From positions 62,001 through 126,000 of the forward strand of contig NZ_JAEQBW010000001.1 in the NCBI RefSeq assembly GCF_016679925.1: a stretch of 64,000 bases of DNA, in the 5' to 3' direction. This document shows, piece by piece, positions 22,244-29,598 of the stretch. Every line of letters starts with the position of its first letter. Positions within the stretch are counted from its first letter, which is position 1. Both the position numbers and the translations under genes were made by a program. Source of the stretch: Marivirga aurantiaca (lineage in GTDB: Bacteria > Bacteroidota > Bacteroidia > Cytophagales > Cyclobacteriaceae). Below the pieces are notes generated by a model. It ran no database searches. It was not told the origin of the DNA and saw only the letters and a list, made by a program, of their open reading frames with translations.

Positions 22244-25200
22244 ATGAAAATAAATTTTATCAAATCTTTAATAATAGCTTGCCTGGTTATTACAACAGGC
22301 ACCTATTTATATACTAATTACTCTACTTCTACAGATGAAAGCATAAGAGTAGAAAAAGTATGGTCGTCAAAAAAGACCAAAGTGAAATCCGGAGAAGAGG
22401 CATTCATGAAACCCGATGGTTTTATTGAGTACTTTAATTCAATTTCAAAGGAAATTAACCAAACTGAGTCTGGCTATCAAAAGGGGTATCGTTTTAATGA
22501 GCTTTCAAAGTCATTAAAGAAGCAAGCGCAAGCAAGGACTAATGCTAATGTTCCAGCCGAATTTATTTCCCGTGGACCGGGGAACGTAGGTGGTAGAACA
22601 AGGGCAATAGCCGTTGATCCTGATGATAATACAAGCTGCACCTGGCTGGCCGGTGCTTCAAGTGGTGGGATCTGGAAAACTACTGATTGTGGTGAAACCT
22701 GGATCAATATTTCACCTGATTTACCAAACCTTTCTACTAATTCAATTGCACAGGCCTCTTCTAATCCTGATGTAATCTATGTGGGTACAGGAGAAGTGTT
22801 TGCAGGAAATACAACATTTGTAAGAGGTGATGGTATTTATAAAAGTACGGACAGAGGAGCTACATGGAGTTTGCTTTCTTCAACAGTAGATAATGCTGAT
22901 TATATTTCTGTAAACAGAATTGCTGTTGATCCTACAGATGAAAATACTGTAGTGATTGCTACTAACAGTGGTATTTATAAGTCAACAGATGGAGGTGCAA
23001 CATGGTCAGAAACTTATAGTGCTTCTTCAATTGGTTCAGTTCAGGATTTGCAAGTAGACCCATCGGATTACAATATTCAATATGCAGGTGTAAATAGCAA
23101 TGGTATTTATAAATCTATCGATGCAGGTGACACCTGGACAAGATCTTCTGACGGAATTGCTGAAGGTGTAAGATTTGAAATTGCAGTGGCTCCAAGTGAT
23201 CCTAATATTGTTTACACTTCAACTTTTTCAGGTGAAGAAACTGTTTTATACTATTCAGAGGATAAAGGAGAAAGTTGGATACTCGTTGGAGACCCTGATT
23301 ATGATACTAATTTCTTAGGGGCACAAGGTTGGTATGACAATACTATTGCAGTAAACCCTTATAACCCTTATGAGGCATATGTGGGTGGTGTAAGCATCGG
23401 CAAGTATTTAGTTGACCCTAATAATATTGGTGAAACGGAAAGACAATTTATTGGAGTAGATATTGAAGGAACTAACTTTATAGAGTTTGTGAATTTTGGT
23501 GCAACTTACAACGCAGGTTCACTTAATATATCAGATGGAAGTAATAATCCTTCGGAAAATCCTGTTACAGTTGAAATTCGTTTTGGGGCAGATAATGTAC
23601 AAAAAGCTCATAGGTTTACTGTACCCGAAGGTGCTACTTCCGGAGTGGCCATTGCAGATTATACTTATCAGGATTACATTGATGTGCCTTTTGAAGTGTG
23701 GGACATTGAAAATGATCGCCAATTAATGGTTTCTTTTCGTGACCAGGAAAATGATGGAGAGTTTAATCTTAATTCACGTAGTTCAACGGATGAAGATTTA
23801 TCCGCAGCAAGAGAATACTTTTATGTTCATGATGTGGATTATGATGCATCAACTCCTAATAGTGATATTGCAATAGATGGTGGTGTTGAATTCGCAAATA
23901 TGTATTACTTCTGGCCTGTATTGGCTGAAGAGGCTACATGGGATCCTGCTTCATTTGAAAATGCCATAATGAGAATTAATTATGGCTCGCAATTTCTGGC
24001 TCAAGCTACAGCAGTTGCTATTTATGATGCCTACGGTAATTATGAGGGACAAAATCAAAATACTGTTCACCCGGATCATCATCATTTGACTTTTGTTAAA
24101 ATTGATGATGACAATGAAACTTTTATGATTATCAATGGTAATGATGGTGGTTTTAGTCTTTCAATGAATAACGGAGAAACAATGGATCAAATCACTGATG
24201 GTTATGTAACTTCTCAATTTTATGGTGCTGATAAAAAGCCGGGAGAAGACAAATATATTGGTGGTACACAGGATAATGGAACCTGGGTTTCCACCGGCAC
24301 ATCGGTTGATGAAACCAATGCTTATAATTTCGTGATAGGTGGAGATGGTTTTGAAGTGCTTTGGCATGCTACTGACACTGAGAAAGTGTTGGGAAGTATT
24401 TATAATAACAGAATCCAAAAGTCAACCAATGGAGGACAATCATTTTCAGCATCTGCAAATGGTATAACTTCCGGTGATGGTCCTTTTATTACAAGGCTTG
24501 CTGGTTCTGTTAGTTCTCCTGATGTGGTTTATGCTATTGGTGAAACTGGTGTTTATAAAAGTACCAATTTTGGAGGTAGCTGGACAATGAAGACCATTGA
24601 TAATGAAACCTGGGGCGGAAATGCAAGTGCAAGCGATGTAGAGGTTTCTTTAGCTAATGACCAGATAGTGTGGGCAGGTGCCGGGATGGCAAGTAGCTTA
24701 AACTTTTTCGTTTCAACTGATGCAGGAGAGACCTATGAAGCGGTTAATAATTATACTTCAGATCCTAATGCTTATTCCACTGGGATATATACCCATCCAA
24801 CGGAAGAAAATACAGCTTATGCATTGTTTTCCAGAGCTAACTTTCCTAAAATCTTAAAAACTACTGATTTAGGACAAACGTGGACGGACATCTCAGGCTT
24901 TGCTGAAGGAGGGAATGAAAGTACCAAAGGATTTCCTGATGTATTCGTTCATAGCCTTTTGGTAATGCCATTTGATACAGATATTATATGGGTAGGTACG
25001 GAAATTGGTTTGTACGAATCTTTAGATGGTGGTGAATCATGGAATATTAGAAATGATCTCCCTGCTGTGTCTATTTGGTCAATGAAAATTGTAGATGATC
25101 AGGTGGTACTGGGAACACATGGTAGAGGTATCTGGACAGCAACAATTGGAGAGTTAGCCATTGCTGGTTTAAAGGCTCAAACTTTCAACTATGTGGGTTA

Positions 25201-25951
25201 TGGAGAGGCAGAATTGACGCTTGATTTACCAGTGGATTATTCTCAGGTAAAAGTATTGGTGAATGATGTTGAAGTTGAAACAATTGATAATCCGGTTGCA
25301 GGCAATTCTACTGTTATGTTAGAGAATTTTATTGAATTTGAGGGTGCTGACATCAAAATAGTAGGTACTTATGAAGGTGTGGATTATCAATCTAGTGTAT
25401 TGAAAACAGAAGCTATAGATGCTACTCCTGAAATATTGGATTTCTCAGCAGCTAATGAAGGTGATAATTTCCCTGTGTCAATAGAATTGGAAAACAATGA
25501 GCCATTTGAAAAAGTTGAAGTGATTTTTGGTGATGAAGTTGTTTATACTGATACGCAATCACTTACCAAGTCTGATGTGTCAAGAGTAATTAATTTTGAT
25601 TATGCTGAAGCAAACAGTAATAACGTACAGCTGAAAGCATATATTAATGATTTCGTATTCACGACTAATACAGTAAATATTGTTACTTCCAACAAACAGA
25701 AAAAATTGAATGCAGGCTTAAAGTTATACCCCAATCCTGCTGTTGATTTTGTGAACGTAACTGTTGAAGGAATGAATATTGTTGAACTCTCTGTTTACAC
25801 TGCTAATGGACAGTTTGTGAAAAACCAAAGAGTGAAGCAGACAGAAAAACAAGCGCAGTTGAACATTGCAGACCTGAAACAAGGAATGTACCTGCTTCAG
25901 GTAAAAGATGCTAAAGGTGCTTTAAGAACAAAAAGGTTTATTAAGCAATAA
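22244..25951 (+). CDS. Secreted Asp-box (BNR/VPS10-like) beta-propeller protein with T9SS sorting domain
   Basis: A 1235-residue exported protein. After an N-terminal hydrophobic signal (about 7-24) come many Asp-box motifs of the S/T-x-D-x-G-x-x-W type, among them about 201 (STDRGATW), 247, 291 and 338, then weaker ones at about 641, 727 and beyond (KSTNFGGSW, KTTDLGQTW, ESLDGGESW). Such repeats form seven- to ten-bladed propellers as in sortilin and xyloglucanases. A stretch of about 215 residues (about 390-605) without Asp-boxes splits the propeller; it has its own beta-rich character and is followed by HPDHHH. The last about 75 residues (LKLYPNPAVDFVNV to the end) are a type A T9SS sorting domain, so the protein should reach the surface or medium. 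Enzymatic activity cannot be claimed. Confidence 0.88.
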   Translation: MKINFIKSLIIACLVITTGTYLYTNYSTSTDESIRVEKVWSSKKTKVKSGEEAFMKPDGFIEYFNSISKEINQTESGYQKGYRFNELSKSLKKQAQARTNANVPAEFISRGPGNVGGRTRAIAVDPDDNTSCTWLAGASSGGIWKTTDCGETWINISPDLPNLSTNSIAQASSNPDVIYVGTGEVFAGNTTFVRGDGIYKSTDRGATWSLLSSTVDNADYISVNRIAVDPTDENTVVIATNSGIYKSTDGGATWSETYSASSIGSVQDLQVDPSDYNIQYAGVNSNGIYKSIDAGDTWTRSSDGIAEGVRFEIAVAPSDPNIVYTSTFSGEETVLYYSEDKGESWILVGDPDYDTNFLGAQGWYDNTIAVNPYNPYEAYVGGVSIGKYLVDPNNIGETERQFIGVDIEGTNFIEFVNFGATYNAGSLNISDGSNNPSENPVTVEIRFGADNVQKAHRFTVPEGATSGVAIADYTYQDYIDVPFEVWDIENDRQLMVSFRDQENDGEFNLNSRSSTDEDLSAAREYFYVHDVDYDASTPNSDIAIDGGVEFANMYYFWPVLAEEATWDPASFENAIMRINYGSQFLAQATAVAIYDAYGNYEGQNQNTVHPDHHHLTFVKIDDDNETFMIINGNDGGFSLSMNNGETMDQITDGYVTSQFYGADKKPGEDKYIGGTQDNGTWVSTGTSVDETNAYNFVIGGDGFEVLWHATDTEKVLGSIYNNRIQKSTNGGQSFSASANGITSGDGPFITRLAGSVSSPDVVYAIGETGVYKSTNFGGSWTMKTIDNETWGGNASASDVEVSLANDQIVWAGAGMASSLNFFVSTDAGETYEAVNNYTSDPNAYSTGIYTHPTEENTAYALFSRANFPKILKTTDLGQTWTDISGFAEGGNESTKGFPDVFVHSLLVMPFDTDIIWVGTEIGLYESLDGGESWNIRNDLPAVSIWSMKIVDDQVVLGTHGRGIWTATIGELAIAGLKAQTFNYVGYGEAELTLDLPVDYSQVKVLVNDVEVETIDNPVAGNSTVMLENFIEFEGADIKIVGTYEGVDYQSSVLKTEAIDATPEILDFSAANEGDNFPVSIELENNEPFEKVEVIFGDEVVYTDTQSLTKSDVSRVINFDYAEANSNNVQLKAYINDFVFTTNTVNIVTSNKQKKLNAGLKLYPNPAVDFVNVTVEGMNIVELSVYTANGQFVKNQRVKQTEKQAQLNIADLKQGMYLLQVKDAKGALRTKRFIKQ

Positions 25952-27880: not shown

Positions 27881-28990
27881 ATGGAAAACTTTGTAGTATC
27901 AGCCAGAAAATACAGACCAAAGGGTTTTGATGAAGTAGTGGGTCAAAAGCATATTACCACTACTCTTAAAAATGCTATTGATAACAATCATCTGGCTCAA
28001 GCTTTATTATTTTGTGGCCCAAGGGGAGTAGGTAAAACCACTTGTGCCAGGATACTTGCCCGTCTCATCAACAACTTTGATATAGATAATATGGAAGGTT
28101 CCTCTTCTATGAATATCTATGAATTGGATGCTGCTTCCAATAATTCGGTAGATGATGTAAGGAATTTAATTGACCAGGTGCGTGTACCTCCCCAGCATGG
28201 GAAATACAAAGTGTATATTATTGATGAGGTTCATATGCTTTCAAACCAGGCATTTAATGCTTTCTTGAAAACTTTGGAAGAGCCACCTTCTTATGCCATA
28301 TTTATTTTGGCCACTACAGAAAAACACAAAGTTATTCCGACTATTCTCTCAAGATGTCAGATTTATGATTTTAACAGGATCCAGGTAGCTGATATTGCCA
28401 ACCATTTGCTGGATATAGCCAATAGGGAGAAGATTGAAGCAGAAGATGCTGCTTTGCATCTGATAGCTCAGAAGGCTGATGGTGCTTTGCGTGATGCACT
28501 TTCAATCTTTGACTTAATTGTCACCTTCTCCCCGGATAATAAGATTACCTACCAAGCTACAATTGATAATCTGCATATTCTTGATTACGATTACTATTTT
28601 AAGGTAACGGCAGCATTAGTGGAAGAAAAAATTCCCCAGGCTTTACTATTATTTGATGAAATTTTAAAGAAAGGATTTGATGGACATAATTTCATTATTG
28701 GTTTGGCTGCTCATTTCCGCGATTTATTAGTTTGTAAAGATGAAGCAACCCTTGTGCTGTTGGAAGTTTCTGAACAAGTGAAACAACAGTACAAGGAGCA
28801 GGCTGGTATTGTTTCCACATCTTTTCTGCTGTCCGGATTGCACATCATTAACCAGTGCGATCAAAATTATAAAACAAGCAAGAATCCTCGTTTACATGTG
28901 GAACTGACTTTAATGAAGCTTGCCAAAATTAATAGCGCAGTGGATTTAGCACGCTCTAATGAAGAGTTTCTAAAAAAAAAAGTGAGTTAA
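27881..28990 (+). CDS. dnaX: DNA polymerase III gamma/tau: frame-0 product (gamma-like form)
   Basis: A 369-residue AAA+ clamp-loader subunit. Walker A GPRGVGKT (46-53), Walker B IIDEVHML (113-120), sensor segment ATTEKHKVIPTILSRCQ and the DnaX collar domain are present. It starts MENFVVSARKYRPKGFDEVVGQ, as in other Bacteroidota. The four-Cys zinc module usually found between Walker A and ELDAASNN is missing: that gap is short and has no C-x-x-C. The frame stops at 28988-28990, three codons after a run of ten A (28972-28981), while the conserved tau C terminus lies in the -1 frame downstream. This product would therefore resemble the gamma form of other bacteria. Confidence 0.93.
   Translation: MENFVVSARKYRPKGFDEVVGQKHITTTLKNAIDNNHLAQALLFCGPRGVGKTTCARILARLINNFDIDNMEGSSSMNIYELDAASNNSVDDVRNLIDQVRVPPQHGKYKVYIIDEVHMLSNQAFNAFLKTLEEPPSYAIFILATTEKHKVIPTILSRCQIYDFNRIQVADIANHLLDIANREKIEAEDAALHLIAQKADGALRDALSIFDLIVTFSPDNKITYQATIDNLHILDYDYYFKVTAALVEEKIPQALLLFDEILKKGFDGHNFIIGLAAHFRDLLVCKDEATLVLLEVSEQVKQQYKEQAGIVSTSFLLSGLHIINQCDQNYKTSKNPRLHVELTLMKLAKINSAVDLARSNEEFLKKKVS
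28972..28981 (+). other. dnaX: A10 slippage site in dnaX (programmed frameshift or transcriptional slippage)
   Basis: Ten consecutive A residues followed by GTGAGTTAA. Frame 0 reads CTA-AAA-AAA-AAA-GTG-AGT-TAA and stops. A -1 shift on the run gives ...AAA-AGT-GAG-TTA and stays open to 29598. I see no strong stem-loop just downstream, which favours polymerase slippage (as known for Thermus dnaX) over E. coli-type ribosomal frameshifting; both remain possible, as does a homopolymer error. Confidence 0.7.
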
Positions 28991-29598
28991 ATACAGAATC
29001 ACAAGAGGAAGTAAAGAAGAAAGAAACCACGTCCCTGGCTGAAAGCCTCGGTCATAAAGCAACACAACCCAAACCATTAAGGCCAACTATTGAAATTCCC
29101 AAAGCTTCAGATGTAAAACCTTCTAAAACCATTATTAAGGAAGAGAAGCCTGTTGAGATTATCAGCACTAAAGAGGAAAGTAAAGTCGGTAAAGAGCAAG
29201 AAGAAAACAACTCTTCATTTGAAGAGCATGTTAATTTGCCTTTAAACGAGGATACTATTAAGGTAGAATTAAAGAACTTTCTGGCTAGAGAAAAAGGTAA
29301 AATAGGAGCCTTGGGTGCTAATGCTTTAACCAATAGTTTTGTCATTCAAGAAAACTTAATTACCCTGCAACTGACCAATCCGGTAGAAGTTGATGCAATT
29401 GAAACCATAAAAGCCGATCTGGTGACTTACTTGAGGGGTGTTTTTAAGAGAGAGTTACTGCAAATCAATTATGAAGTGAATGCTCAGAATGCCATAGAAA
29501 GACCATATACTCCTAAAGAGAAGTTCGATTCAATGGTTAAGAAAAATCCTATTCTAGGGAAGTTGAAAGATAAATTAGGACTGGATACAGATTTCTAA
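28972..29598 (+). CDS. dnaX: dnaX tau-specific C-terminal region in the -1 frame
   Basis: This frame is open from the A10 run to the stop at 29596-29598. It encodes a Glu/Lys-rich linker of about 80 residues followed by a folded C-terminal domain (about 120 residues) that ends YTPKEKFDSMVKKNPIL and LKDKLGLDTDF, which is how full-length Bacteroidota DnaX proteins end. There is no ATG near its beginning; the first possible start is a TTG at 29236, so independent translation is unlikely. Joined at the slippage site it gives a tau of 572 residues. The tau-specific part normally contacts the polymerase core and helicase. Confidence 0.82.
   Translation, partial: KKKSELNTESQEEVKKKETTSLAESLGHKATQPKPLRPTIEIPKASDVKPSKTIIKEEKPVEIISTKEESKVGKEQEENNSSFEEHVNLPLNEDTIKVELKNFLAREKGKIGALGANALTNSFVIQENLITLQLTNPVEVDAIETIKADLVTYLRGVFKRELLQINYEVNAQNAIERPYTPKEKFDSMVKKNPILGKLKDKLGLDTDF

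Follow-up and report, generated by a model that had tools for sequence, protein, structure and literature searches.

The dnaX gene of Marivirga aurantiaca lies in a 64,000-nucleotide stretch of contig NZ_JAEQBW010000001.1 (the whole stretch is called the window below) and is interrupted by a run of ten adenines. One frame ends shortly after the run, and the remainder of the protein continues in the −1 frame. This locus raises the question of whether the interruption is genuine and, if so, whether slippage of the RNA polymerase or of the ribosome joins the two frames. Judged from the nucleotide sequence, A10 is in all likelihood a programmed slippage site through which one dnaX gene would supply both clamp-loader subunits, with RNA polymerase slippage as the most likely mechanism.

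Anatomy of the dnaX junction

Direct reading of the sequence placed the frame-0 start at the ATG at 27881 and gave TTT CTA AAA AAA AAA GTG AGT TAA as the end of that ORF (Table 1). This agrees with the first-pass annotation, made from the letters alone, which had described a dnaX interrupted by an A10 run, with a 369-residue frame-0 product and a −1 frame open to 29598. The same annotation had the product stopping three codons after the run; the stop is indeed close by, but it is itself the third codon. From 28981, the −1 frame reads AGT GAG TTA AAT and stays open up to the stop ending at 29598. Adding the 205 codons beyond the run to the 367 that lead up to its end gives a tau of 572 aa, which by frame arithmetic is reached if reading slips by −1 or if the mRNA gains a single A. 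The predicted pair of products, a 572-residue tau with a −1 slip and a 369-residue gamma-like form with none, is the one proposed at first pass and would follow from this anatomy; from residue numbers, the two forms are estimated at about 64 and 41 kDa, respectively. We call third frame the frame reached with one A fewer or two A's more.

Table 1. Features of the dnaX locus, in window coordinates
Feature	Position	Strand	Remarks
dnaX frame 0, gamma-like product, 369 aa	27881..28990	+	AAA+ ATPase, lid, domain III; stop TAA 28988-28990
A10 slippage run (putative)	28972..28981	+	frame 0 = CTA AAA AAA AAA
Third-frame TGA	28983..28985	+	begins 2 bases past the A10 run
Frame-0 stop ending gamma	28988..28990	+	two sense codons between the A10 run and the stop
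tau-specific C terminus, −1 frame	28981..29598	+	205 codons plus stop

Profile searches identified both parts as DnaX. The frame-0 product matched PF13177, PF22608, and PF12169 at 235–353 in Pfam and TIGR02397 in NCBIfam, and its residues 1–360 matched positions 1–372 of the NCBIfam gamma/tau model NF011531/PRK14971 (E 7e-199). The −1 frame matched positions 423–613 of the 614 in NF011531 (E 3e-15), each half scoring below the whole-protein cut-off of the model, as halves should. An HMM of the tau C terminus built in this analysis recognized the −1 frame with an E of 3e-27; a Pfam search of the C-terminal part returned nothing useful (EFP_N at E 0.12, below the cut-off). Among ten genus members, pairwise differences at codon positions 1, 2, and 3 of the C-terminal frame numbered 3155, 2152, and 4734 over 8739 codon pairs, and the −1 frame varies like protein-coding sequence within the genus.

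The downstream frame might instead be a separate protein with its own start, which we consider very improbable. Some ATG, GTG, or TTG does occur within 60 codons after the run in 84 of 135 split genes, but a start within 15 codons is found in only 16 of them (ATG in 4), and in 152 single-ORF genes the corresponding region continues DnaX in the same frame. The ORF listing of the window contains no ATG, GTG, or TTG in the −1 frame before the TTG at 29236, ~85 codons downstream. The earlier claim that this frame encodes the DnaX C terminus with no start nearby is borne out by that distance and by the NF011531 match. On the start-codon scans of the window and of the split genes, an own start for the downstream frame was rejected.

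Homopolymers are a classic site of error, and the split could be read as a sequencing or assembly error, or as a decaying pseudogene, the true gene having one frame. The comparison with relatives, a check named beforehand in the first-pass annotation, makes this reading hardly credible. In all ten Marivirga genus genomes examined, assembled in 1 to 460 contigs, the codon position of the A10 run is identical and tau lies in the −1 frame, although the flanking bases vary; for practical purposes this excludes a homopolymer error. A third-frame stop stands directly after the run in all ten (TGA in 8, TAA in 2), and the gamma stop, TAA or TAG, starts 7 bases after the run in all ten, five bases beyond the third-frame stop. 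A10 is likewise found in 128 of the 136 genes with a −1 split in the survey described below, and the pattern of variation in the C terminus is that of coding sequence. The genome of the window (5.01 Mb, 99.98% complete) holds a single match above the dnaX family cut-off. With ten genus genomes in agreement, we rejected the error or pseudogene reading.

The run is more than a chance occurrence. In the genome of the window, A10 or T10 gave 26 overlapping matches, counted as 21 distinct places. Of these, only the one in dnaX is embedded in an open frame by >120 codons, the rest falling in short frames or near frame ends. Outside the main run, just 16 further runs of at least nine A's occur in 291 dnaX genes (511 kb). 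The site is real and conserved, and it is very probably functional.

Elsewhere in the window, an ORF at 22244–25951 encodes 1235 aa with repeated sialidase/sortilin-like motifs, as judged by eye. Its C-terminal stretch, also by eye, resembles what we take to be a type IX secretion sorting signal.

Distribution of the run among Bacteroidota dnaX genes

We examined 311 loci, comprising an order sample of 58 that includes the window, class and phylum samples, and the 80 named loci nearest the window. Removal of 16 exact repeats left 295 distinct loci, and removal of two cut by contig ends and two classless genes left 291. Sampling was not random: 72 of these 295 belong to the named loci closest to the window. 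Genomes giving only weak or partial matches were left out (G017; G067, G071, and G127; G190 and G213), as were 13 full phylum matches without a locus (G181, G182, G184, G197, G200, G214, G215, G221, G223, G227, G231, G235, and G239), and G094 had no dnaX match. Taking one gene with a run per cluster of 80% identity gave 114 representatives (60 single-ORF and 54 split).

A run of A9–A12 follows domain III in 250 of the 291 classifiable genes. By longest run, 21 genes have fewer than six A's, 9 have A6, 10 A7, 1 A8, 31 A9, 206 A10, 12 A11, and 1 A12. Tau lies in the −1 frame of a split gene in 136 cases (A10 in 128, A9 in 6, A11 in 1, and A7 in 1; at least nine A's in 135 of the 136) and in the +1 frame in three, each with at least nine A's. 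The 152 single-ORF genes divide into 112 with A9–A12 (77 with A10, 25 with A9, 9 with A11, and 1 with A12) and 40 without. In the class sample, taken without the order and named sets, the run is present in 93 of 110 clear-class genes and absent in 17; the 93 consist of 65 single-ORF, 26 split −1, and 2 split +1 genes. In the 114 representatives, the run lies a median of 70 bases (range 33–328) from a reference point set close to where domain III ends.

The tau C-terminal HMM, built from single-ORF genes, agreed with the assigned tau frame for 133 of the 139 split genes; the six without a match (L329–L331, L333, L334, and L339) all belong to family f84 of the phylum sample. Codon phases 0, 1, and 2 of the run are represented by 20, 64, and 28 single-ORF genes with at least nine A's and by 8, 27, and 100 split −1 genes. 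Because the run occurs in all three codon phases and with tau in frames 0, −1, and, rarely, +1, it is conserved as DNA, not as a peptide or a frame. AAG accounts for 31% of the lysine codons elsewhere in the 114 representatives.

The three +1 genes are L160 (A11), L228 (A10), and L241 (A11), with the tau frame confirmed by the tau C-terminal HMM. They are unreplicated, as the genera of two of the three hold one genome each, and L160 comes from a metagenome bin, so that its A11 could be an assembly error.

Single-ORF dnaX genes with no run also occur in the phylum sample (e.g. L324, L325, L316, and L304). A run of nine is absent from 9 of 12 representatives with a G+C content of at least 55%.

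Spare-frame stops, stimulators, and the probable mechanism of slippage

Polymerase slippage spreads transcripts over three frames, whereas a single ribosomal −1 slip visits one. Owing to this scatter, slippage by the polymerase leads one to expect that both non-tau frames close soon after the run. In the window, the third-frame TGA and the frame-0 TAA directly follow the run, and among the representatives both non-tau frames are closed within 10 codons of it in 108 of 114. Control rates were 18–28%: both frames were closed at 108 of 476 A5–A8 runs elsewhere in the N part of the same genes, at 132 of 470 in the tau part, and at the same place in 3 of 17 run-less single-ORF genes. Tested singly, either spare frame gave p < 1e-15 over all genes and stayed significant after clustering at 90, 80, 75, and 70% identity, with p no higher than 0.013 (17 split genes at 70%). 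Among split −1 genes with a run of at least nine, frame 0 stops within 10 codons in 135 of 135, which is partly a matter of class definition, and the third frame in 132 of 135, which that definition does not require. E. coli dnaX, a ribosomal case and one data point, has its −1 stop after 2 codons and its +1 stop after 12.

The RNA-DNA hybrid of RNA polymerase spans 9–10 base pairs, a length that the ten A's match. In the mechanism that we favor, RNA polymerase would slip on the ten A's. Transcripts with 10 A's would be read to the nearby TAA and yield gamma (369 aa), those with 11 A's, or with any length one more modulo 3, would be read on in the −1 frame and yield tau (572 aa), and third-frame transcripts would meet the TGA at once. 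Such slippage presumably happens in the cell, and both products would then be made in useful amounts. The leap from one gene at A8 to 31 genes at A9 fits slippage by the polymerase and not a 7-base ribosomal heptamer. Runs of nine have been analyzed as slippage-prone in bacteria (PMC1088944), and runs of eight or longer are named in this context in a passage of PMC3711429. Run length and the closed spare frames of the survey both favor transcriptional slippage, as had been supposed at first pass.

A second reading places the event on the ribosome: −1 frameshifting on A_AAA_AAA within the run would make tau from a faithful mRNA. Ten A's also leave tRNA-Lys room to slip, A10 always offers tandem AAA codons, and 136 of the 139 split genes need a −1 shift. 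A 7-base site would suffice for this, yet A6–A8 is found in 20 of 291 genes and A9–A12 in 250, the third frame is closed too, and tau lies in the +1 frame in three genes, where a −1 ribosomal slip cannot make it. Ribosomes are described as sliding on poly-A (PMC4363877), and sliding of this kind could also reach the third frame. The passages of PMC5009743 treat the reversed dnaX arrangement, with tau arising from the shift, under ribosomal frameshifting and name a Chlorobium with E. coli-like stimulators. Taken with the stimulator data below, these points make purely ribosomal frameshifting improbable, and slippage is probably mainly the work of the polymerase.

The lean of the split genes toward the −1 direction, 136 to 3, was counted against the transcriptional reading, a single shift direction being taken as a sign of ribosomal frameshifting in PMC3711429. 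Slippage on nine A's is reported to add up to 6 extra nucleotides (PMC5009743), and a polymerase biased toward insertion would account for the direction equally well. Under the transcriptional reading, insertions by the polymerase would outweigh deletions.

Downstream stems and strong Shine-Dalgarno (SD) motifs are not clearly enriched at the run. The 80 bases downstream of the run in the window fold no better than shuffles (z = −0.39), and among the 114 representatives the stability of the downstream fold relative to elsewhere in genes had mean ranks of 0.476 and 0.506 (p 0.56 and 0.87). The first-pass statement that there is no obvious stem-loop thus extends from the window to the representatives, and in neither did the search for a conserved stem-loop give a significant signal; this lack of significant structure also speaks against the ribosomal reading. 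The most stable 10% of folds contained 9 of 60 and 8 of 54 representatives (17 of 114), with 6 and 5.4 expected, a slight excess that counts against the transcriptional reading.

No SD-like word was seen by eye in the 20 bases upstream of the A10 run in the window. Among the representatives, five-base SD-like words precede the run in 1 of 60 and 3 of 54 (4 of 114), against 1.2% and 1.5%, and four-base words in 22 of 114, against ~11% elsewhere. Words of both lengths are in mild excess, which supports ribosomal frameshifting and counts against the transcriptional reading. Bacteroidia ribosomes, according to PMC9976891, fail to recognize SD sequences, so that an SD stimulator of the E. coli type should be weak here, a point against the ribosomal reading. 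In-frame A_AAA_AAG, the heptamer of E. coli, closes the run in 14 of the 60 single-ORF representatives and in 12 of the 54 split ones and is absent at the run of the window, where the frame is CTA AAA AAA AAA GTG; at 26 of 114, it was rejected as a conserved unit.

A further observation that counts against the transcriptional reading comes from the genes with A6–A8, in which both spare frames are closed within 10 codons in 10 of 20; the signature therefore needs no run of nine. In these genes, slippage may recently have been lost or the run shortened, or another mode or a shorter tract may operate.

The A6–A7 genes with both frames closed include L056, L168, L169, and L173 (the last three from Pontibacter), L212, L223, L224, and L293. 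The same group also holds L277, whose tract lies far downstream, and L035 (G023, same family), a split dnaX with A7 in which GGAGG is followed after nine or ten bases by an in-frame A_AAA_AAG and immediately by TAG. By analogy, the L035 junction is reminiscent of the E. coli site and may mark a switch to ribosomal frameshifting, a reading tempered by the reported indifference of Bacteroidia ribosomes to SD words.

Slippage might also operate at both levels, the polymerase setting most of the ratio and the ribosome adding to it. This reading overlaps with polymerase slippage and does not exclude it. The same site permits both, and among orthologous dnaX genes some employ one mechanism and some the other (PMC5009743 and PMC3711429), but a clear separate ribosomal signature is lacking here, and we regard a two-level scheme as possible though rather doubtful.

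Relation to known systems and evolution of the tau frame

The GeneTack dnaX cluster of Antonov et al. (2013) contains 17 two-ORF genes that need a −1 shift for tau; nine of the 17 have ten A's, and programmed transcriptional realignment was proposed for them (PMC3711429). The dnaX of the window shares with that cluster the frame-0 gamma, the tau reached after a −1 shift, and the poly-A junction, and nothing essential in the published passages sets it apart. It belongs to this already-known two-ORF, ten-A type, and a Marivirga may be among the ten-A species, which are given in the supplement of that paper. The first-pass suggestion that the same principle may have evolved independently here is not supported, both because the type was published in 2013 and because an A9–A11 run sits at this place in most of the phylum's dnaX genes examined. 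The account in the passages of PMC3711429 makes no mention of single-ORF relatives that keep the run. Among the literature matches listed, with subscription journals and supplements outside the scope, we found no report of the run in single-ORF Bacteroidota dnaX or of an interchange between the two forms.

In Thermus thermophilus, dnaX undergoes transcriptional slippage on A9, with tau templated and gamma made by slippage (PMC1088944 and PMC5009743). The run in the window carries the Thermus-type signature: at least nine A's, both alternative frames closed by nearby stops, and two products, here deduced from gene anatomy. The arrangement is nevertheless a mirror image, as the template in the window encodes gamma and slippage would give tau; the phylum's single-ORF genes with A9–A11 resemble Thermus in their layout, and in one with A10, such as L113 of Rhodocytophaga aerolata, gamma should be the slippage product. 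E. coli dnaX likewise uses an A-rich site to obtain both clamp-loader products from a single gene, by a ribosomal −1 shift at A_AAA_AAG, with tau templated, gamma from the shift, and an SD stimulator and a stem-loop (PMC5009743). Compared with it, the present system has a longer run, no clear enrichment of stimulators, and swapped product roles. Shigella mxiE also has two overlapping ORFs joined by homopolymer transcriptional slippage into a longer product (PMC1088944), but on a U-run and in an unrelated gene, for a transcription activator.

We mapped the gene forms on a tree that a quick method (LG+G4) gave for the N-terminal parts of 146 DnaX proteins. Parsimony gave about 29 changes between the split and single-ORF states, at least 14 of them forced by well-supported branches, and 20 changes for having or lacking at least nine A's on the same tree. 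Both forms occur with A10 or A11 within each of families f25, f53, f58, f72, and f73. In f73, the split L282 (A10) and the single-ORF L284 (A11) are identical over the seven codons that precede the one where the run starts. L284 carries one A more and seemingly an additional codon immediately behind the run.

If the polymerase slips on the run, a change of a single A in the DNA would still yield both products, and the templated frame would be left to drift. Single-A frame changes in the DNA would then be nearly harmless, slippage supplying both products from any template frame. On balance, we lean toward a phylum-wide picture in which the A9–A11 run is the conserved element and the tau frame is close to free, the gene drifting between templated tau and templated gamma while each spare frame retains its stop. 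In that case, transcriptional slippage would be the ancestral, default route to gamma and tau in Bacteroidota, a phylum whose class Bacteroidia is reported to have ribosomes blind to the SD signal used by E. coli.

The gene in the window is one more case of a known recoding type, and the interest lies in the pattern across the phylum. The survey extends a handful of published cases to a conserved, phylum-wide slippage site; relative to the 2013 account, what is new is that the run is kept across relatives whichever frame carries the long form. The closure of both spare frames provides a sequence test relevant to deciding whether the Thermus or the E. coli mechanism applies. In practice, gene finders may call such dnaX genes split or pseudogenes. 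Culturable Bacteroidota would also allow one to test whether gamma has any role beyond E. coli and Thermus. These data suggest that, even in an essential replication gene, a frameshift mutation can do almost no harm when transcription errs in a programmed way.
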